Source: Betaproteobacteria bacterium | Lineage (GTDB): Bacteria; Pseudomonadota; Gammaproteobacteria; Burkholderiales; UBA3065 | DNA length: 48,570 nucleotides | Assembly (NCBI GenBank): GCA_009927815.1 | Contig: RFMI01000069.1 | Location: 1-48,570 of the forward strand | Reading direction: 5' to 3' | Part shown: positions 4,967-38,114 of the stretch, in pieces | Position numbering within the stretch: the first letter of the stretch is position 1 | Layout of the letters: each line of letters opens with the position of its first letter | The notes under the pieces: model-generated | Database searches by the model: none | The model's input: only the letters and a program-made list of their open reading frames with translations | What the model was told of the DNA's origin: nothing | Program-made: the position numbers and the translations under genes

Positions 4967-6127
4967 ATGCTGCGTCTATGGCACTTGTTCTGCCAGACGG
5001 TGACCGTCGCCGTCGCCGTGCTATTCGTTGTGTGGACCTTTCACCCCGAGTGGCTGCGTCGTCCGCTGATAGCGGAAGATCCGCTGCCAACCATCCGCGA
5101 AGCGGTGTCCAGCCCACCGGCGGAAGACAACCTCGCCGGCGGCAGTGCCCGGGCCGCCGCGAAAGCGAGCCGCTCGGTGGTGAGCATCTACACCCGCCGC
5201 GAGGTGGCTCGCAGCAACCCGCTGCGCGAGCATCCCTTCTTCGGGCGTTTCTTTGAAAACGAGCCAGCGGACGACGAACAACCGGGCTTGGGTTCGGGCG
5301 TGATTGTCAGCGCCGACGGCTACATCCTCACCAATAACCACGTCGTCGAGGCCGCCGACGCCATCGAGGTCGCCATGGCTGATGGCCGGACCGCGACCGC
5401 GCGGGTGGTCGGCATCGACCCTGACACTGATTTAGCCGTCTTGAAGATCGCAGCCACCGACCTGCCGGCCGTGACGTTTGCCGACACCTCGACGGCGCGC
5501 GTCGGCGAACCGGTGTTGGCGATCGGCAACCCATTTGGCGTTGGCCAGACCGTGACCCAGGGCATCATCAGTGCGCTGGGGCGCACGCGACTCAATCTCA
5601 ACACCTTCGAGAACTTTATTCAGACCGACGCCGCCATCAACCCCGGCAATTCGGGTGGTGCGCTGGTCGACATGAATGGCAACTTGCTCGGCATCAACAC
5701 CGCGATCTTCACCCGCAACGGCGGCTCGATGGGCATCGGTTTTGCGATTCCGGTGGATCTGGCGCGCGGCGTTCTCGAGCAGATTGTCCGCAACGGCAGC
5801 GTCACCCGTGGCTGGATGGGCATCGAGATGCAAGCGCTGACCCCTGACCTTGCCAGCTCGCTGGGCGTTGGGCGGGAACAGGGCGTTCTGGTCGCCGGGG
5901 TGATGCGAGGCGGACCCGCAGCGCGCGCCGGCATCCGTCCAGGCGATGTGATTGTTTCGATCGATCACAAAGCGGCGCGGGATGCGGCTGGGATTCTGAA
6001 TCAAGTGGCGGCCATCAGCCCCGGCACCGCCGCCCAAGTCGAGTTGGTGCGCAACGGCAAACCACTGCAGGCCGCCGTCGAGGTGGGACGACGCCCAACC
6101 GACAACCGCCGGACAGAGACGCCCTAA
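4967..6127 (+). CDS. Membrane-anchored DegS/AlgW-type periplasmic serine protease
   Basis: This HtrA-family protease has 386 residues. An uncleaved N-terminal transmembrane segment (about 8-25) is followed by a trypsin-like domain with catalytic triad H125 (TNNHVV), D155 (DTDLAVL) and S229 (NPGNSGGAL). A single PDZ domain occupies about 280-375. One membrane helix plus one PDZ is the DegS/AlgW architecture, which senses misfolded outer-membrane proteins and starts anti-sigma-E cleavage. DegP/DegQ have two PDZ domains and a signal peptide. The ATG at 4967 is preceded by AAAGG. The 3' end overlaps aroB convergently by 4 nt. Assignment to the sigma-E pathway is inferred from architecture only. 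Confidence 0.9.
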
Positions 6128-7212
6128 GCGGCGATCAGTCGTCCCGTCAGCACTCGCCGCAGCAGATCGGTCGGAACCTCGGCGCTGACCACCGCCGAAC
6201 CCAGCGCGCGCAGCAGGATGAAGCGGATGCGTCCGGCCTCGACCTTCTTGTCTTGCGCCATCAACTCGAGGTAGCGGTCAGCGCCGTAAGCCGGCGACCG
6301 CACTGGCAGGCCGGCATGCACGAACAAGCGCTCGATGCGATCGACGTCGGCGGCCCCGATCCAGCCGAGTCCGGCCGACGTCTCGGCGGCCAGCAGGGTG
6401 CCCGCCGCTACGGCGTGGCCATGCAACCAATTGCCGTAACCGGCCGCGGTCTCGATGGCGTGGCCAAAGGTGTGGCCCAGGTTCAGCAGTGCCCGCACGC
6501 CGGTCTCGTGTTCGTCCTCGGCGACCACATCCGCCTTGTTGCGACAGGAGCGCAAAATGGCCTCGGCCAGTGCCGCGGGTTCACGCTGCATCAGCACGTC
6601 AACGTTGGCTTCGAGCCATTCGAGGAAGGGTAGGTCGCGAATCAGGCCATATTTAATGACTTCGGCCATCCCTGCTGACAGTTCGATGTCGGGCAAGGTG
6701 TCGAGCGTCGCGGTGTCGGCCAGCACCAGCCGTGGCTGGTAGAAAGCGCCGATCATGTTCTTCCCGAGCGCGTGGTTGACGCCGGTCTTACCCCCCACCG
6801 ACGAATCCACCTGCGAGAGCAATGTGGTCGGCACCTGAATAAACGGCACGCCGCGCAGGTAGGTCGCCGCCGCAAAGCCGGTCAGGTCGCCGATCACCCC
6901 GCCGCCTAGCGCGATGAGGGTGGTCTTGCGTTCGCAGCGGGCGCGCAACAAGGCATCGAACACCTGATTCAGCGTATCGAGCGTTTTGTAGGACTCGCCG
7001 TCGGGCAACACGATGCGCGTCACCTTGACGCCCGCTGCCTCGAGCGGCTCGGCCAGTCGGTCCATGTAGAGGGGCGCGACCGTCGTGTTGGACACGATCG
7101 CCACGGCGGGCGCCGGCAGATGCGGCAGGATCAGCTCGGCACGCTCGAGCAGACCGGCGCCGATATGGATCGGGTAGGCGCGATCGCCCAACGCGACGTT
7201 CAGGGATTGCAC
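6124..7212 (-). CDS. aroB: 3-dehydroquinate synthase
   Basis: AroB converts DAHP to 3-dehydroquinate, the second shikimate-pathway step, using NAD+ and a divalent metal. The 362-residue product shows the NAD-binding segment [20 protein letters not shown] and the [19 protein letters not shown] loop. It also has [21 protein letters not shown] and metal-site segments including [11 protein letters not shown] and GHAVAAG. Length is typical. The start codon lies 13 nt inside the end of aroK, so the two are translationally coupled. The pathway supplies chorismate, the substrate of PabB encoded at 32614-33993. Confidence 0.96.
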
Positions 7213-7754
7213 GCGGTGACCTCCGCAGCGGGCTCGGGGTTCGGGCGGATCTGCTGACCGATCTGGCGAGCCAGTTTGCTGGCGCTCTGGCGCCCGGTCT
7301 CGACCACCAAATCAGCGACTTCGCGGTACCACACGTCGCGCTCACGGTAGAGCTGGGCGAGCCGACCGCGCGGGTTGGCGGTCTGCAGCAGTGGTCGCGA
7401 ACGGTCGTTCTTCAATCGGACAAACAGGTTCTCCGGGCGCGTGTGCAAATAGACGACGAAACCCCGGCCGGCGAGGTCACGGCGGTTGTCGGCATCGATG
7501 ACCGCGCCCCCGCCAGTGGCCAAAACAATACTCTCGCGACGGGTCAGCTCTTCAATCATGCGGCGTTCGCGGGCGCGGAAGCCAGCCTCGCCCTCCAACT
7601 CGAAAATGGTGGCGACTGGCACGCCGCTTCGAGCCTCGATTTCGTGGTCGCTGTCGACAAAGGCAAGGCCGAAGTCGCGGGCGAGCAGCCGCCCGACGGT
7701 GGACTTGCCCGCCCCCATCAAGCCGACAAGAAAAATGCGCGAGACTTCGGACAT
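7200..7754 (-). CDS. aroK: Shikimate kinase
   Basis: AroK phosphorylates shikimate at the 3-hydroxyl with ATP. The Walker A motif GLMGAGKST lies near the N-terminus. [11 protein letters not shown] follows for shikimate and Mg binding, with [11 protein letters not shown] and a lid arginine in DRSRPLL. I chose the ATG at 7754, which gives 184 residues. The frame is open to 7790, but the extra 12 codons have no family counterpart. The gene lies 35 bp downstream of pilQ and overlaps aroB by 13 nt, the usual pilQ-aroK-aroB arrangement. Confidence 0.95.
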
Positions 7755-7789
7755 CCTCGATTCTAGCCGAGCCGCGATGTCCGGCGGCA

Positions 7790-9226
7790 TCAGGGTGGCG
7801 ACACCAGGGGTGGCGCCTCCACGATCCGCGGGGTCACGAATATCAGCAACTCGGTCTTGTCCTGCTGCTGCGTCCTGCTGCGAAACAGGCGACCGATGCC
7901 CGGTAGCGCCGACAAGCCGGGAATGCCCGCGCTGTTGTTCTGCCGCGCTTCGGTGAGGATGCCCCCGATCACGACGGTGCCGCCGTTCTCGATCCGCACT
8001 TGGGTCTGGATTTGCTTGGTGTCGATCGGCGGCCCTGCGGGTGTGGTGTTACTGAAGTTGGGAGAATCCTTATTCACCCGTAGATTCATGACGATGTGAT
8101 TGTCCGGAGTGATTTGCGGACGCACACGCAGCGACAGCGTCGCTTTCTTAAAGGTGACGGCGGTGGCGCCGCTTGAGGTCGCCAACTGGAACGGCACCTC
8201 AGTGCCTTGCTCAATCACCGCCTCCTCTTGATCGGCGGCGACCACGCGCGGACTCGAAACGACCCGGCCGAGACCGTCGGCCTCGAGTGCGCTCACCTCG
8301 AGGTTGAGAAAGCGGGTCAGCCCAGCGTTGAACAGAGACACGCTCAAGGCCCCCGGCGCAACTCCCCGGATGGCAGTCGCCGGCAGGTTCACCAGCAAGG
8401 CCTGAGACACGCCGTCTGCAGTTGCCGCCGAGGCGGCCTGCGCTGCTGGGGCCAGCGCGTTGGCGGGCTGATTGAGCTGACCAGTCTGAGCCGCTACACC
8501 GCCACCGCCGGCAAGCCCGCCACCAACCAGGACACGCGTACCGCCCCCGACTCCGGGGACGCCGCCCCGTGCGTTGCTGGTGTCGTTGAAGCCCAGGCGG
8601 ACACCCAGGCTGCGGCCAAAGCTGTCGGTCGCCTCGACGATGCGCGCCTCGATCATCACCTGCCGCAAAGGCACGTCGGTGTCGGCGATCAGGCGCTGGA
8701 TGTCAGCCAAGCGCTGAGCCGTGTCTTGCACAAAGACCCGGTTGGTGCGTGGATCAGCCAACACCGCACCTCGCTTCGAAAGAATGCGATGCGCGGGGTC
8801 GCCCAGCAGCGCCTTGAACGCTTCGGCCCGCTGGTAATGCAACTGGATGCTCTCGCCGACCAGCGGTTCCAGATCGGCGCGCTGCAACTGCTGCATCTGC
8901 GCATCGCGGTCGCGTTGCAGAAGCTCCTCGCGCGGAGCGACCAAGATCAGGTCGCCGAAGCGACGCTGGTCGAGGTCGCGGCTGGCCAAAACCAAGTCCA
9001 GCGCCTGCGGCCAAGGCACATCGGTCAAGCGCAAGCTGATGGCACCCTGCACCGAATCAGTCGCCACGATGTTCAGCCCTGACGCATCGGCGATCGCCTG
9101 CAGCACAGCCCGTACATCAGCATTGTTGAAGTTGAGGTTGATGCCGTCGGCAACTGCAGCAGCCGAAAGCCACTGTGTTGTGGCGATGAGCAGCAATGTC
9201 TTGACGCTTCGTTCAAACAGGCTCAA
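7790..9226 (-). CDS. pilQ: Type IV pilus secretin PilQ, short form without AMIN domains
   Basis: PilQ forms the outer-membrane channel for type IV pili. The 478-residue product has a signal peptide (cleavage after about AAAVADG) and an STN/N0 domain (about 28-105). An N1-type domain covers about 115-190, and the secretin core reaches the C-terminus, with VVSSPRVVAADQEEAVIEQG and GIPGLSALPGIGRLF. Typical PilQ proteins have around 700 residues with one or more N-terminal peptidoglycan-binding AMIN domains. None is seen here. The start is TTG at 9226, overlapping the pilOP stop (TTGA). A GGGAGGGG ribosome-binding sequence lies a few bases upstream and supports this start. The region near 220-270 is Gly/Ala-rich. 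Confidence 0.92.
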   Translation of the reverse strand: MSLFERSVKTLLLIATTQWLSAAAVADGINLNFNNADVRAVLQAIADASGLNIVATDSVQGAISLRLTDVPWPQALDLVLASRDLDQRRFGDLILVAPREELLQRDRDAQMQQLQRADLEPLVGESIQLHYQRAEAFKALLGDPAHRILSKRGAVLADPRTNRVFVQDTAQRLADIQRLIADTDVPLRQVMIEARIVEATDSFGRSLGVRLGFNDTSNARGGVPGVGGGTRVLVGGGLAGGGGVAAQTGQLNQPANALAPAAQAASAATADGVSQALLVNLPATAIRGVAPGALSVSLFNAGLTRFLNLEVSALEADGLGRVVSSPRVVAADQEEAVIEQGTEVPFQLATSSGATAVTFKKATLSLRVRPQITPDNHIVMNLRVNKDSPNFSNTTPAGPPIDTKQIQTQVRIENGGTVVIGGILTEARQNNSAGIPGLSALPGIGRLFRSRTQQQDKTELLIFVTPRIVEAPPLVSPP

Positions 9227-10158
9227 GGGCCCCTCCCAATGTCGTCATTTCGGCGATCACTGCCGACCATTGGCACGCGCAGACGCTGCCCGCCACGGCT
9301 CAACCAGACCTCGTCATCGCTCACTCGCTCGACGCGCCAGCCGCCATCGAAGACGCTATCGCCGACCGTGACTGCCTGCACCTCGCCGTGGCGACCATCG
9401 ATCAACGCAATCAGACGCCCGGGGATTCCCAGTGTGCCGAGCAAGCGCACACGCGGGTACGTGCTGCCGCGGGACTCCAGTGATCGTTCGTTCACCCTGG
9501 GTGAGAGCGTCGTCGCAAAAGGATCGATGCCGTGTTGCGGCCAGCTGAACGCCGCTGCGGCGCCATCCGGCAAGCGGATCTCAGGCGTCCGCTGCGACAG
9601 CACCAAGGCCACCCGGTCACCGGCCATCGACTGCGAATCGCTTTGCCAGCGCAACTCGCGAATCAACCAAGGCTGCGTCCTGACCTGTTGCGTCAACCAA
9701 GTACCGATCGCGTTGAAACTGCCGCGCAATTCAACAGACATCACGGCCGAAGCCGCGGGGCCTTGCTCCGGACGGAGACCCAGCACCTCGAGCTCGGCCT
9801 CCGCAGCGCTCTTCTGCAAGTCCAGCACCCGCTCGGACACCGAGAGCGGCGCCTGCGCACGAGACGCCTCGCCAGCAGAAGCCGGATGCTCGCTAGCCAA
9901 GTGTCGCCGCACGCGCATCGAGCGAGCCGCAGTCTCGGCCGTCCGCAGCGCTGTTTGATGGACTTGAATCGCCCCCTCCAGCGCATTCAGCTGCTGCCAG
10001 CGCGGCCACAGGCCAAACCCCGCCATAGCCGCGATTAAGCCCGCGAGCAGCGCGGGCGCGAGACTCTGCAGCGACGGTCGAGGCCAAGCCGGCCACAGCG
10101 GTGGCGGGCGCTCACCACCCGCATCGGATGCGAACCGCAACCGCAGCGACTCAGCCAT
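9223..10158 (-). CDS. PilO-PilP fusion protein of the type IV pilus alignment complex
   Basis: The 311-residue protein occupies the positions normally held by separate pilO and pilP. Residues about 30-53 form one inner-membrane helix. A short coiled coil and a ferredoxin-like PilO domain follow to about residue 200. After a linker the PilP signature DPFAT appears. The C-terminal 80 residues look like the PilP homology-region beta-sandwich (RVRLLGTLGIPGRLIALI, then a VTVGD...DGGWRVERVSDDEVWL repeat-like end). The PilP lipoprotein signal peptide and its N-terminal segment are absent. The start is ATG at 10158, overlapping the pilN stop by 1 nt. A GTG one codon upstream is possible. No frameshift is apparent, so I read this as a true fusion. 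Confidence 0.85.
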   Translation of the reverse strand: MAESLRLRFASDAGGERPPPLWPAWPRPSLQSLAPALLAGLIAAMAGFGLWPRWQQLNALEGAIQVHQTALRTAETAARSMRVRRHLASEHPASAGEASRAQAPLSVSERVLDLQKSAAEAELEVLGLRPEQGPAASAVMSVELRGSFNAIGTWLTQQVRTQPWLIRELRWQSDSQSMAGDRVALVLSQRTPEIRLPDGAAAAFSWPQHGIDPFATTLSPRVNERSLESRGSTYPRVRLLGTLGIPGRLIALIDGRHGEVQAVTVGDSVFDGGWRVERVSDDEVWLSRGGQRLRVPMVGSDRRNDDIGRGP

Positions 10159-10718
10159 CACTTAGCCTCCGGCACCGAGTGGACCCCGCCGGAGGCGTCG
10201 GGCAAGCGGGCTCGGACTTCGAACAGCAGCCAGCCGGACGGCACGTTGTCGCGGTGCACGTCGACCAGACTGGCTTGGGTGACCACGCCAGCGGCGTCCA
10301 GCGCCGAGAACCAAGCGCCGATTTGCGAATGCGAGCGGGCCCGCCCACCGATGCGGAGACCCGAGTCATCGTGGTGCAACAACTGCAGCGACAGGCCAGG
10401 CTGGGCGATGCGCCGCAAACCGTCGAGCAAGGCCAGCACGGCGACCGACTGTCGACGGTCTTCCATGGATTGGCTGAGGCGCTGCCTGTCGTCCGCGAGG
10501 TTGCGACGTTGCGCCATGACGCTGGCATTACGCGTGTCCAGGGCTGTGACACGTTCGGACAGTTCACGGTCGAGACCTTGGCGATCGCGGATGGCCTCAA
10601 CAAGGCCGAACCAGCCGACGCCAACCAACAGGACGCCTGTAGCCAAAGCCACCGACAGCATCGATACCGATTGCGCCGGGGCTTGGGCCCGGCGAGGCGC
10701 AAGATTGATCGTGATCAT
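10158..10718 (-). CDS. pilN: Type IV pilus assembly protein PilN
   Basis: PilN is an inner-membrane protein whose short cytoplasmic N-terminus binds PilM. The 186-residue product starts with the family signature MITINLAPRR. One membrane helix follows (about 20-42) and then a periplasmic coiled coil with a compact C-terminal domain. I chose the ATG at 10718 because it begins the INLAP-type PilM-binding motif and overlaps the pilM stop by 4 nt. The open frame extends 35 codons further into pilM without family similarity. Confidence 0.92.
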   Translation of the reverse strand: MITINLAPRRAQAPAQSVSMLSVALATGVLLVGVGWFGLVEAIRDRQGLDRELSERVTALDTRNASVMAQRRNLADDRQRLSQSMEDRRQSVAVLALLDGLRRIAQPGLSLQLLHHDDSGLRIGGRARSHSQIGAWFSALDAAGVVTQASLVDVHRDNVPSGWLLFEVRARLPDASGGVHSVPEAK

Positions 10719-11647
10719 GACAGGCCTCGCAGTGCCAGGCCGTATGCGGTCAACCACGCGCCCCCGAGCCCCGCATCTACAGAGCCAGGGTCTGGCGGCA
10801 TTTGCGGCACGTGAAACATGCATCCAGGCTGACCGGCCTGCAACGCTGCCAGCCGATCCGGGTCGGCTGCAGAGCCCGCTACGGCAATTCCCGTCGACCG
10901 GACATCGTCCCGAGCGGGCAGGCTACTCAATGCCACCTGCAACTCGTCCAGCCACTGGGTGAGCGCACCGACGCTGCTCGGGGCTGCAGCCAGTTCACGT
11001 GATGTGACCACGCCTGACTCAGCCGGGCTGATGACGCGAGTCGCACGTTGACCGCAGTCGATCAAAACGTCACGGACATGCTGCGGAGACCAGAGCTCCA
11101 GCGCGCGCCGCTCGGCATAGGGGTTGAGATCGACCACCTGGGCCCGCAAGCCGACGGCATTGAGCAGGGCCATGCGCTGGTCGACAGTCTCGCGGCGGAC
11201 CGCCACCAGACAGACCGGATGCCCTATCGCATCGGCCGGACCCGAGCGATGCCAATCGAGTTGCAGACCAGCCGGCGACACCGGCAGAACGGCTGCTGCC
11301 TGCCGCTGGACTGCCGCATCAAAGCGCTGAGCGTCGCCATCGTCATCCGCCGGGATGACGATGCGGCGGGTGATCGCGGTGCTGCCCGGCAGGCCCACCA
11401 CCACCTCGACCGCACGAAACGGTAAATCCCGCAGTGCGATGCGGATGGCGTCAAGCGCCGACGCGCTCCCGTCGGCAGAATCGAGCGGCATCGCCGCCCA
11501 AGCGTGCGCCTCGAGCCGGGGGCCCGCGCGCCCAGACCGCAGACTCACCACACGGACGGCACTGGCGCCGATATCCAGCCCCACCCCCCGCCGTCCATGC
11601 CAATGTGATAGCCCGTTGCAGACACGCTGTAAGCCGGTGACAAACAT
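10715..11647 (-). CDS. pilM: Type IV pilus assembly protein PilM
   Basis: PilM is an actin-like cytoplasmic ATP-binding protein that docks to PilN. The 310-residue product shows the phosphate-1 motif GVGLDIGASAVRVVSLR, the VVVGLPGSTAITRRI segment and a second nucleotide-binding segment around DVLIDCGQRATRV. It is somewhat shorter than typical PilM (about 350). The ATG at 11647 opens the operon. The 104 bp to the divergent ponA gene should contain both promoters, although I could not assign clear -35/-10 pairs. Confidence 0.9.
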   Translation of the reverse strand: MFVTGLQRVCNGLSHWHGRRGVGLDIGASAVRVVSLRSGRAGPRLEAHAWAAMPLDSADGSASALDAIRIALRDLPFRAVEVVVGLPGSTAITRRIVIPADDDGDAQRFDAAVQRQAAAVLPVSPAGLQLDWHRSGPADAIGHPVCLVAVRRETVDQRMALLNAVGLRAQVVDLNPYAERRALELWSPQHVRDVLIDCGQRATRVISPAESGVVTSRELAAAPSSVGALTQWLDELQVALSSLPARDDVRSTGIAVAGSAADPDRLAALQAGQPGCMFHVPQMPPDPGSVDAGLGGAWLTAYGLALRGLS

Positions 11648-11751: not shown

Positions 11752-14052
11752 TTGAACGCGAAACGCATGGCAGTCGGGCTCCTGCTGGTGGCGCTGACCC
11801 TGGTCCTGAGCGGCGGCATGCTGGGCGCCTTTGCCGCCTTCATGACCTACCCGAAGCTACCCTCGCTAGAGGTGCTCACCGATTACCGACCCAAACTGCC
11901 GCTGCGCATCGTCTCCGACGACGGCAAGGTGATCGGCGAGTTTGGCGAGGAACGCCGCTCGGTGGTGCGCTTCAAGGACGTGCCGAGATCGCTGGTCGAC
12001 GCCATCCTCGCTGCCGAAGACGAGCGCTTCTACCAACACGGCGGCATCGACTACGCGGGTGTGCTGCGGGCGATGCTGGTCAACTTCGTCTCCGGCGAGA
12101 CCCGCCAGGGTGCCAGCACCATCACCATGCAGGTGGCGAAAAACTTCTTCCTGTCGAGTGAGCGGACGCTGACCCGCAAATTCAATGAAGCGCTGCTGTC
12201 CTACAAGATTGAGTCGAACCTGAGTAAGGACCAGATCCTCGAGCTCTACATCAACCAAATCTACCTCGGCCAACGCAGCTATGGTTTTGCAGCCGCCGCC
12301 CGCACCTACTTCGGCAAAGATCTGAAACAGCTGAGCATCGCCGAAACCGCCATGCTCGCCGGACTGCCCAAGGCGCCGTCGACCGGCAACCCGATCACCA
12401 ACCCACGACGCGCGCGCGCACGTATGCAATATGTGTTGGAGCGCATGCACTCGCTGAAGAAGATCAGCACAGCGCAATACGAGCAGGCTCGCGACGAAAA
12501 CGTCGCAGTGCGGGCCTCGCGCAACTCTGTCGACAACGCAGACTTTGTCGCCGAGATGGTCCGGCGTGACATGGTCGAGCGCTTCGGCGACGCCGCATAC
12601 ATTAGCGGCATCACCGTCTACACCACCATCGACTCGCGCCACCAGGCCGCCGCGCAAGCTGCCCTGCGCAAAGGCGTTTTGGACTATGAGGCGCGACACG
12701 GCTGGCGCGGGCCGGCGAAGTGGCTGAACCTGCCGGAAGTGCCCGACTTGGCCGACAAGGCGATCGACGAAGCGCTGCAGGACCAGTTGCCGATTGGCGG
12801 TCTGCAAGCGGCGGTGGTGGTTACCGTGACGCCCAAGGAGATTCGCGCGCGCACCCGGCTCGGCGAGGTGCTGACCCTCGGTGCCGACAGCCTGACAGTG
12901 GCCAAAGCCTTCCTCGGCGAGAAGGTGCCCGCGGCCAAACGTCTGCAGCGCGGCTCCGAAGTCTGGCTGCGGCCCACCGACGCGGGCGGCTGGGTGCTGA
13001 GTCAGTTGCCCGAAGCCGAGGCGGCACTGGTCTCAGTCGACCCTCACGATGGCGCCATCCGCTCGCTGGCAGGCGGCTTCGATGCCGGCCGTAACCAGTT
13101 CAACCACGTCACCCAAGCGTGGCGTCAACCCGGCTCGTCGTTCAAGCCCTTCATCTACTCGGCGGCATTGGAAAAAGGCTACAACCCCGCCACCATCGTT
13201 GAAGATGCTCCGCTGCATTTCGACGCCAGTGTCACCGGCAGCGAGGCCTGGAACCCGCAGAACTACGACGGCAATTTCGACGGCCCGCTGCGGCTAAGGG
13301 TCGCTCTGGCAAAGTCCAAGAACATGGTCGCCATCCGCGTTTTGCAGGCCATCACGCCGCTGTACGCGCAGCAATGGATCACCCGCTTCGGCTTCGACGC
13401 GCAGCGCAACCCGGCTTACCTGAGTCTGGCGCTCGGTTCGGGAGCGGTCACGCCGCTGCAGATGGTGGGTGGCTATGCGATCTTGGCGAATGGGGGTCAC
13501 CGGGTAGCCCCCTACCTAGTCAAAAAGGTGATCGACAGCAAGGGCCGCCTCCTTGCCATCGCCAAACCGAAGGTGGTGGGCGTGGATGCCGAGCCCGTGA
13601 TCGAGCCGCGCAATGCCTGGCTAATGACCAGCCTCCTGCGTGATGTGGTGCGCATGGGCACCGCCACCCGCGCCATGAGCCTCGGCCGCGCCGACCTCGC
13701 CGGCAAGACCGGCACCACCAACGACAACGTCGACGCCTGGTTTGCCGGCTATACCCCGGGGTTGGTGGCTGTGAGCTGGATCGGTTTCGACCAACCGAAG
13801 AGCCTCGGCTCAAAGGAGACCGGTGGAGCGGCTGCATTGCCAATCTGGATCGACTACATGAAGACCGCCCTGCAAGGCGTGCCGGAGCAGTTCATGCCGG
13901 AACCCGAAGGCATCGCTCAGGCGATCATCGACCCTGCCAGCGGCCGCTTTGCTGCCAGTGGCCTGATCGAGTACTTCTACGAAGAGCAGACGCCGGCGGC
14001 GCAAGCGGCTGCGCAAGAACCCAACCCCGCGACCACGGTCGAGACCCCATGA
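11752..14052 (+). CDS. ponA: Penicillin-binding protein 1A, bifunctional peptidoglycan synthase
   Basis: The 766-residue class A PBP polymerises and crosslinks peptidoglycan. One N-terminal membrane helix (about 10-32) is followed by a GT51 glycosyltransferase domain with AAEDERFYQHGG (catalytic Glu near 89) and GASTITMQVAKN. An OB-like insertion leads to the transpeptidase with S462-S-F-K, SKN and KTGTT motifs. The TTG at 11752 is chosen because AAGGA lies about 8 bp upstream. An ATG five codons further on is too far from it. The gene is divergent from pilM, a standard proteobacterial arrangement, and overlaps the next gene by 4 nt. Confidence 0.95.
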   Translation: MNAKRMAVGLLLVALTLVLSGGMLGAFAAFMTYPKLPSLEVLTDYRPKLPLRIVSDDGKVIGEFGEERRSVVRFKDVPRSLVDAILAAEDERFYQHGGIDYAGVLRAMLVNFVSGETRQGASTITMQVAKNFFLSSERTLTRKFNEALLSYKIESNLSKDQILELYINQIYLGQRSYGFAAAARTYFGKDLKQLSIAETAMLAGLPKAPSTGNPITNPRRARARMQYVLERMHSLKKISTAQYEQARDENVAVRASRNSVDNADFVAEMVRRDMVERFGDAAYISGITVYTTIDSRHQAAAQAALRKGVLDYEARHGWRGPAKWLNLPEVPDLADKAIDEALQDQLPIGGLQAAVVVTVTPKEIRARTRLGEVLTLGADSLTVAKAFLGEKVPAAKRLQRGSEVWLRPTDAGGWVLSQLPEAEAALVSVDPHDGAIRSLAGGFDAGRNQFNHVTQAWRQPGSSFKPFIYSAALEKGYNPATIVEDAPLHFDASVTGSEAWNPQNYDGNFDGPLRLRVALAKSKNMVAIRVLQAITPLYAQQWITRFGFDAQRNPAYLSLALGSGAVTPLQMVGGYAILANGGHRVAPYLVKKVIDSKGRLLAIAKPKVVGVDAEPVIEPRNAWLMTSLLRDVVRMGTATRAMSLGRADLAGKTGTTNDNVDAWFAGYTPGLVAVSWIGFDQPKSLGSKETGGAAALPIWIDYMKTALQGVPEQFMPEPEGIAQAIIDPASGRFAASGLIEYFYEEQTPAAQAAAQEPNPATTVETP

Positions 14053-14651
14053 GCCGCGACCTGCCGCCACGCTTCCAGCGCGAAGCCATCGCCCAAGCTG
14101 CGGCGCGGATGATCGCTGAGGATGGCTTGCACGACTACGCGCTGGCCAAGCGCAAAGCGGCCCGACAACTGGGCGTCACTGGCAACCAGCAACTGCCGAA
14201 TAACGACGAGATCGATGCTGCGCTGCGCGCCTACCGCGAAGTGTTTCAAACCGGGACCCACCCCGAACTCCTGTACGAACTGCGCAGCATCGCAGCTCAG
14301 GTGATGCAAGAACTGGCCACCTATCAACCGCAACTGACCGGCTCCGTGCTCGCAGGCACGGCCGGACCCGAATCCGACATCAACCTATTGTTGTTCGCCG
14401 ATAGCGACAAAGACGTCGAGATCGATCTGCTCAACCGCGGCATCCCGTTTGAGACTGGCGAGCGCAAACGCCAGCTGCGCGGAGAGACTCGCAAGGTGCC
14501 AGTGCTCACCGTGTTCGTCGGTGACGCCGTCGTCAACCTTGAGGTGCTGGAGCCCCGCGACCGCTTCGACCGACCGCGTGGCAACGGCAACCGCGCCGAG
14601 CGCGCCGATCTACCCGCTGTTCAACAGTTGCTGGACAGCCAGCCCGACTGA
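14049..14651 (+). CDS. Nucleotidyltransferase-like protein of unknown function
   Basis: The 200-residue cytoplasmic protein has a helical N-terminal third (AIAQAAARMIAEDGLHDYALAKRKAARQLG). It is followed by a segment resembling the minimal nucleotidyltransferase core, with LTGSVLAGTAGPESDINLLLF near residues 95-116 in the place of the G-S...D-x-D motif. The second acidic residue is Asn here. A later KVPVLTVFVG strand could hold the third position but has no Asp. The ATG overlaps the ponA stop (ATGA), so the two are co-translated. I do not recognise a specific function. Homologues next to ponA in Betaproteobacteria are sometimes mislabelled as Mur ligases, and no Mur ligase motif is visible. 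Confidence 0.75.
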   Translation: MSRDLPPRFQREAIAQAAARMIAEDGLHDYALAKRKAARQLGVTGNQQLPNNDEIDAALRAYREVFQTGTHPELLYELRSIAAQVMQELATYQPQLTGSVLAGTAGPESDINLLLFADSDKDVEIDLLNRGIPFETGERKRQLRGETRKVPVLTVFVGDAVVNLEVLEPRDRFDRPRGNGNRAERADLPAVQQLLDSQPD

Positions 14652-14670
14652 CCATTGTCGCATCAGCCCC

Positions 14671-14700
14671 TTGCCGGATCGGCAGAGGCACGCGTACAAT
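14671..14700 (+). promoter_or_regulatory. Probable sigma-70 promoter of the rpsP operon
   Basis: TTGCCG at 14671-14676 and TACAAT at 14695-14700 are separated by 18 bp and lie 35 bp upstream of the rpsP ATG. Each hexamer is one or two mismatches from the sigma-70 consensus. The position between ponA's partner gene and a ribosomal operon fits. It is a sequence reading only. Confidence 0.6.
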
Positions 14701-14735
14701 CGCGGGTTCTTTTGATTCCTCACAGGATTTCAGCC

Positions 14736-14984
14736 ATGGTCGTTATTCGTCTGGCTCGCGGTGGCGCCAAGCACCGTCCGTTTTACAGCGTGGTGGTGAC
14801 TGACTCGCGCAATCGTCGCGACGGACGCTTCATCGAGCGCGTTGGCCATTACAACCCGATCGCTAGCGGCGCCGAGCAAGGCCTGCGCATCGACACCGCC
14901 CGCGTCAGCGAGTGGGTTGCCAAGGGCGCGCAAGTTTCGCCGACCGTTCAGCGCCTGATCAAGAGCGGTGCAGCTGCCGCCTGA
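14736..14984 (+). CDS. rpsP: 30S ribosomal protein S16
   Basis: The 82-residue product starts [20 protein letters not shown], the S16 signature, and contains [10 protein letters not shown] and the C-terminal [19 protein letters not shown]. The ATG at 14736 matches the conserved protein start. The longer open frame upstream has no similarity and includes the predicted promoter. It is the first gene of rpsP-rimM-trmD-rplS, and its end overlaps rimM by 17 nt. Confidence 0.98.
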
Positions 14985-36890: not shown

Positions 36891-37502
36891 TCAGTGAGCG
36901 GCGAACGGATGCGCGGACTTTGACTTCTGGGCAACCACGTCCTTGGCGGTCGGCTCGCCAGCGACGGCGCGCTGGATCGCTTCACGGGTGGCGCGGTAGT
37001 TGAAGTCTTGAATCTTCTTGTCGTCGGAGGCGTCCCAGTGGATGAACACGCCAACCGATACGAACAGGTCATCGGCTTGATCGACCGGGATGGTGCCATC
37101 CTCGACCGAATCAGCAACCGCCATCGCAACGCCACGCTGAGCCGGGCCGAACATCTGCACAGCTTGCTTGGCACCCTTGATGGTGACCTTGTTGAACATG
37201 ACGCAGTTGGGCTTGGCCATCAAGTTCGGCGCGACCACAGCCAGCAGGGCGGTGAAGCCATGCTTGTTGTTGGTCAGCGAATTGTTGAAGGCGGCTTCGG
37301 CAGCCGATCCACGCGGACCGATGATCAGGTCGATGTGCGCGACTTCGTTGCCATCACCCACCAGCGATTCGCCGATCAGGACCTTGTTGATGCGGGTCGA
37401 AGCCTTGGCGGCCGGCTTGGCAGCTGCCGGAGCAGGTGCGGCGGCGGTGGCCGGTTGTTGCTTGAGACCGAGCAGCCCGAGGATACCGTCGAGAATTCCC
37501 AT
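36891..37502 (-). CDS. fae2: Formaldehyde-activating enzyme paralogue with N-terminal helix-linker extension
   Basis: Fae condenses formaldehyde with H4MPT to methylene-H4MPT. The 203-residue protein has a complete Fae domain from about residue 36, with [19 protein letters not shown] including the conserved His, and the C-terminal KSAHPFAAH. It is about 83% identical, by my ungapped reading, to the neighbouring 169-residue Fae. The first 35 residues are extra: a Gly/Leu helix ([14 protein letters not shown]) and an Ala/Pro/Lys linker. The ATG at 37502 has AGAGGGAG 5 bp upstream, which fixes the start and makes the extension translated. The open frame to 37562 lacks such support. The symbol only marks the second copy. 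Confidence 0.93.
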
Positions 37503-37604
37503 GTTGACTCCCTCTGTGGAGCGGCCCGCCCAACTGGACAGGCCGTCTTCGAGTAGCGCCACGCACCAGCGGCCGAAGCCCCCAGTGCGCGATGGCGACT
37601 GCGA

Positions 37605-38114
37605 TTAGTGTGCTGCGAACGGGTGGGCCGAGGTGCCCTTGGCTGCAACCACGTCCTTGGCCTTCGGCTCGCCCTTAACGGCGCGGGCCAGAGCTTCCTT
37701 GGTGGCGGTGTAGTTGTAGTCTTGGATCTTCTTGTCGTCTTCGGCCATCCAGTGGATGAACACGCCGACCGAGATGAACAGGTCATCGGCTTCGTCAGCC
37801 GGGATGGTGCCGTCTTCGACCGAATCAGCGACTGCCATAGCGACGCCACGTTGGGCCGGGCCGAACATTTGGACGGCTTGCTTGGCGCCCTTGATGGTGA
37901 CCTTGTTGAACATCACGGTGGCCGGCTTGCACATCAGGTTGGGAGCAACCACAGCCAGCAGCGAGGTGAAGCCGTCCTTGTTGTTGGTCAGGGTGTTGCA
38001 GAAAGCCGATTCAGCGGCCGAACCACGCGGGCCAATGATCAGGTCGATGTGTGCGACTTCGTTGCCATCACCAACCAGGGACTCGCCCACCATCACGCGG
38101 TCAATCTTTGCCAT
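37605..38114 (-). CDS. fae: Formaldehyde-activating enzyme
   Basis: This is a canonical 169-residue Fae ([20 protein letters not shown] onward, ending SAHPFAAH), which forms methylene-H4MPT from formaldehyde in the cytoplasm and is usually very abundant. The ATG at 38114 has an ideal AAGGAG Shine-Dalgarno (38122-38127 on the complementary strand) 7 bp upstream, fitting high expression. A 93 bp gap separates it from the CitG-like gene, and 102 bp lie before the paralogue, so it may have its own promoter. The shared terminator lies beyond the second copy. Confidence 0.97.

Follow-up and report, generated by a model that had tools for sequence, protein, structure and literature searches.

In Pseudomonas aeruginosa, the unstructured N-terminus of PilP binds PilNO and its C-terminal domain binds the N0 domain of PilQ; contacts of the PilP homology-region (HR) domain with PilQ N0 and of PilP with PilNO have both been reported (PMC5285504, PMC5805733). 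The machine is localised in this organism by AMIN domains (PMC5285504). Fusions of PilO and PilP were reported by Korotkov et al. (2011), with the Pseudomonas putida protein Q88CU9 named as an example, and a 1:1 stoichiometry was inferred (PMC3169554). As the fusion is already described there, the question of novelty is settled: a PilO-PilP fusion as such has been known since 2011 and is not new in kind.

A gene of this type is present in the window, by which the whole analysed stretch of 48,570 nucleotides is meant (contig RFMI01000069.1 of assembly GCA_009927815.1, Betaproteobacteria bacterium; 1.76 Mb in 140 contigs, 94% complete). The operon has the order pilM-pilN-[pilO-pilP]-pilQ-aroK-aroB, with the following features.

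6124 to 7212, minus strand: aroB-like 3-dehydroquinate synthase gene (open reading frame; by eye)
7200 to 7790, minus strand: aroK-like shikimate kinase gene, directly after pilQ (open reading frame; by eye)
7790 to 9226, minus strand: pilQ, a short secretin of 478 aa with N0/STN, N1 and secretin domains (Pfam; TIGR02515, E 2.8e-133)
9223 to 10158, minus strand: fused PilO-PilP, 311 aa (open reading frame, AlphaFold, Foldseek and VIA-align, hydropathy, cysteine count)
9265 to 9459, minus strand: HR (PilP/GspC homology-region) domain of the fusion, residues 234-298 (VIA-align; weak Pfam matches, NCBIfam pilP_fam)
9586 to 9852, minus strand: PilO-like ferredoxin domain of the fusion, residues 103-191 (VIA-align)
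10158 to 10718, minus strand: pilN, about 186 aa from MITINLAPRR, in a longer open reading frame reaching 10823 (Pfam PilN, E 2e-4, just below the cut-off; operon position)
10715 to 11647, minus strand: pilM, 310 aa (Pfam PilM_2, E 4e-22)
11752 to 14052, plus strand: penicillin-binding protein 1A-like gene, divergent, ahead of pilM (open reading frame; by eye)

A penicillin-binding protein 1A gene is the usual upstream neighbour of pilM, and the gene surroundings are those of the usual chromosomal setting of pilMNOPQ. The fusion is read as a single uninterrupted frame from the ATG at 10158; an alternative GTG start at 10161 would give 312 aa. Its 5' end shares TGATG with the pilN stop and its 3' end shares TTGA with the TTG start of pilQ, so that it is packed into the operon by overlaps on both sides. 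It very probably encodes a naturally fused PilO-PilP subunit of the type IVa pilus alignment complex, within a chain PilM-PilN-(PilO-PilP)-PilQ. Elsewhere in the window, at 36891 to 38114, two similar adjacent genes resemble by eye those of formaldehyde-activating enzymes and have other possible C1-metabolism genes near them, which suggests a methylotroph.

The sequence-only reading had proposed that PilO and PilP are joined in one bitopic frame of 311 residues without a lipobox, and this was borne out. The only strongly hydrophobic stretch found by hydropathy is at residues 32-50, and the protein contains no cysteine, which means that there is no lipobox and no lipid anchor. The AlphaFold model, built on a five-sequence alignment (mean pLDDT 61, pTM 0.34), is reliable for the two domains and not for their arrangement. 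The protein is laid out as a cytoplasmic N-terminus (1-31), a membrane helix (about 32-50), a coiled coil (50-88), the ferredoxin domain (103-191), a linker (191-232) and the HR domain (234-298). Helices were predicted at 30-47 and 50-88, the coiled-coil region at low pLDDT, and the linker, which includes the DPFAT motif, is unordered (pLDDT <50). In the model the ferredoxin-like fold spans 107-188, and the HR domain is predicted as a beta domain (238-297) at a pLDDT of about 80-89. PilO, PilP, the GspC HR domain and PulM were the top Foldseek matches of the model. With VIA-align, residues 103-191 were superposed on P. aeruginosa PilO (2rjz) with a Z of 11.0 and an rmsd of 2.7 over 89 residues. 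The HR fold at the C-terminus, which had been set as a test, was recovered: residues 234-298 gave a Z of 11.0 and an rmsd of 1.6 with the GspC HR domain (3oss_C), and Z values of 9.5, 9.3 and 8.9 with PilP (2lc4, 2y4y and 2ivw, respectively), a fit to GspC that is no worse than that to PilP. The PilO traits present are a single N-terminal membrane helix, a coiled coil and a ferredoxin-like core; of the PilP traits the HR beta-sandwich is present, and the lipobox with its lipid anchor is absent.

Sequence profiles were less sensitive. Pfam T2SSC (3e-4) matched the HR domain slightly better than Pfam PilP (0.08), both under the curated cut-offs, and NCBIfam pilP_fam gave 8e-5. Pfam PilO (PF04350) did not match the window protein and reached a congener (L054) below threshold, and the PilO identity consequently rests on fold, position and relatives. 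A phmmer search against the PDB returned nothing relevant. No second PilP was found in the source genome, 94% complete, with PF04351 at E<=10, and a search with a profile of fusions likewise gave a single match, the fusion locus; a separate pilP elsewhere in the genome, which the sequence-only reading had named as a refutation, was thus not found.

The family comprises five genomes of one genus, and the fusion is present in all five. Among them PilQ is 72-73% identical and the frame directly upstream carries both domains in every case, whereas the window fusion shares 21-25% identity with its four congeners. Since each of these four congeners keeps the frame uninterrupted at this low identity, a sequencing artefact was ruled out as the source of the fusion. 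The fast evolution of the protein accounts for the failure of a plain protein search with the fusion sequence to give any match in named genomes. A profile of the genus, searched against 399 genomes from the order, matched chiefly through its HR segment. Across about 20 other genomes, the matched proteins at the loci examined were about 164-188 aa long, bore a lipobox and adjoined a PilQ-like secretin, which indicates that the HR domain belongs with PilP; in three of these loci the front half of the profile matched separate PilO genes. Two matches (L065 and L072) lacked a lipobox, and because their over-long frames overlap pilO their true starts lie later. The congener records are betaproteobacterial or Rhodocyclaceae metagenome-assembled genomes (MAGs); one of these records (L051, CAMDGF010000008.1), oddly titled as a Klebsiella pneumoniae MAG, contains the operon of this betaproteobacterial genus and its title is likely wrong.

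The linker, unordered as the PilP tail is, could be thought to be cut after synthesis of the one chain, leaving separate PilO and PilP-like parts. This is very unlikely, for every member of the genus retains the single frame, and an HR domain released by cleavage, with neither a lipobox nor a signal sequence ahead of it, would be left unanchored in the periplasm.

The survey of related genomes, which the sequence-only reading had also called for, extended the fusion from the genus to other families of the order and of the class. In a class-wide PilP search 298 of 369 genomes gave a match, and among the best matches listed nearly all frames measured 170-250 aa, a length that cannot hold a fusion. 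Eighteen loci were inspected further, chosen for weak matches or long frames. Single open reading frames with PilO-like and PilP domains were present in families f165, f81 (three genomes), f202, f110, f88, f146 and f129 and in a Gammaproteobacteria MAG (L055). In three loci (L122, L135 and L140) Pfam PilO and PilP both scored above their cut-offs within one frame (2e-22 and 9e-17 in L122). The L122 fusion (766 to 1791, genome G512) is clear and is not followed by pilQ within the stretch examined; the secretin may be elsewhere. At three loci, short separate PilP-like genes of 105-129 aa lie beside a short PilQ (L138 1471-1821, L142 1471-1788, L143 1459-1848); they have no obvious lipobox and possibly represent a pre-fusion stage.

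A first survey of the order with the genus profile had pointed to a fusion confined to the genus of the window, which was overturned by a wider profile made from 16 fusions. This profile gave matches in 308 of the 399 genomes surveyed in the order, mostly two separate ones per genome among those listed. One frame spanned both halves in at least eight genomes, namely the five of the genus, two of family f31 (G254 and G119) and one of f7 (G101). Beyond the family of the window genome, fusions were thus found in two families of the order and in seven or more further families of the class. Genomes in which the two genes are separate also occur in families f31, f7, f165 and f202, and such mixing implies a repeated origin inside type IV pilus systems. 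A PilQ tree with 43 rows required a minimum of eight switches between the fused and the separate state, four of them forced by starred branches, although changes on this tree cannot by themselves separate gain from loss; a careful tree within the order needed three. Placing every fusion detected within the order in a single clade was only marginally disfavoured (AU p 0.051), and one clade of the genus and f31 was not rejected (AU p 0.375). Taken together, the changes on the PilQ trees indicate that the fusion arose several times.

This bears on the proposal that the protein follows the plan of GspC, and on the further step of taking it for an intermediate in evolution, or for a genuine GspC-type protein, that shows how type IV pilus and type II secretion systems interconvert. 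The plan holds in part: an HR domain that fits GspC closely, with the better T2SSC score, is carried on a single inner-membrane helix, but GspC has no ferredoxin domain between the helix and HR. The interconversion was not upheld and is very unlikely. By its TIGR02515 secretin, gene order pilMN-pilQ and neighbours the operon is a pil operon; the HR profile matches lipobox-bearing PilP, and in other fusions the HR domain is clearly that of PilP (1e-8 in L055, and L122 as above). The scattered, repeated fusions within type IV pilus lineages argue for convergent gene fusion and not for a step between systems. Moreover, contig C85 of the same genome carries a separate type II-like cluster that includes a secretin of its own, a GspE-like ATPase and pseudopilins. 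The secretin of this cluster (locus L026, G000:C85, 11176-17804) has 630 aa and a TPR-like N-terminal part; a 160-aa one-helix protein encoded there (14492-14974, minus strand) is HR-like by eye and matches no Pfam or NCBIfam model. ATPase searches found four T2SSE-family genes in the source genome, which by score and context we read as PilB-like (C95), GspE-like and TadA-like (C85) and PilT-like (C137). That the operon is a degenerate, non-functional remnant, as the small genome and the fast divergence of the fusion relative to PilQ might suggest, is scarcely credible given that every frame is intact in five species, PilQ is strongly conserved and PilB- and PilT-like genes are present.

The function of the fused PilO-PilP protein is most likely that of a one-piece alignment subunit that connects PilN with the N0 domain of a PilQ that is short and lacks AMIN. 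It would be anchored by its single inner-membrane helix, and its coiled coil and ferredoxin domain would pair with PilN in the manner of PilO. The flexible linker and the covalent link to PilO may take the place of the lipid anchor and the PilNO-binding tail of PilP, and the HR domain is expected, as in homologues, to dock on PilQ N0. A continuous chain from PilM to PilQ would result, in which PilO and PilP are forced to a 1:1 ratio, a stoichiometry also derived from the homologues. The natural fusions support this ratio and offer a single chain for structural studies of the alignment complex, and their repeated origin suggests that the PilP lipid anchor is dispensable once PilO carries the HR domain.

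An AMIN domain was not detected in the window PilQ (Pfam, E up to 10), nor in the PilQs scanned from fused lineages with the exception of G101, whereas all three unfused relatives scanned (L180, L181 and L197) have two AMIN stretches. In G101 a fusion of 371 aa (L175 1983-3098) occurs with a 746-aa PilQ that bears AMIN (L198 1746-3986), and an AMIN-less PilQ as a requirement for fusion was rejected on this ground. A short PilQ is also found at some unfused gammaproteobacterial loci, so that the link between fusion and AMIN loss is a tendency. The fusion may tentatively be seen as a path taken repeatedly and convergently by type IV pilus systems, often of small genomes with an AMIN-less PilQ, that dispenses with the PilP lipoprotein and fixes the alignment complex at 1:1; this is possible rather than probable. 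The open-access literature searched yielded no paper that deals with the repeated origin or with the AMIN tendency.

Among known systems, P. putida Q88CU9 is like the window protein in combining PilO and PilP in one type IV pilus polypeptide with the same proposed 1:1 consequence, a likeness known from the cited description, and differs in lineage. The type IVa pili of P. aeruginosa and Neisseria share domain folds and gene order with the window, but there PilO and PilP are two genes, PilP is a lipoprotein and PilQ has AMIN. HofQ models of NCBIfam match the window PilQ. The HofMNOPQ and ComABCDE DNA-uptake operons are compact and have a short PilQ without AMIN, as in the window; HofO/HofP and ComC/ComD are separate genes, unlike the fusion. 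GspC is bitopic and HR-bearing as the fusion is, and GspM shares the ferredoxin domain. GspC lacks that domain; the fusion ends with HR and lies outside a type II locus, beside a PilQ-type secretin, pilM and pilN. In type II terms the fusion is a GspM plus an HR domain.
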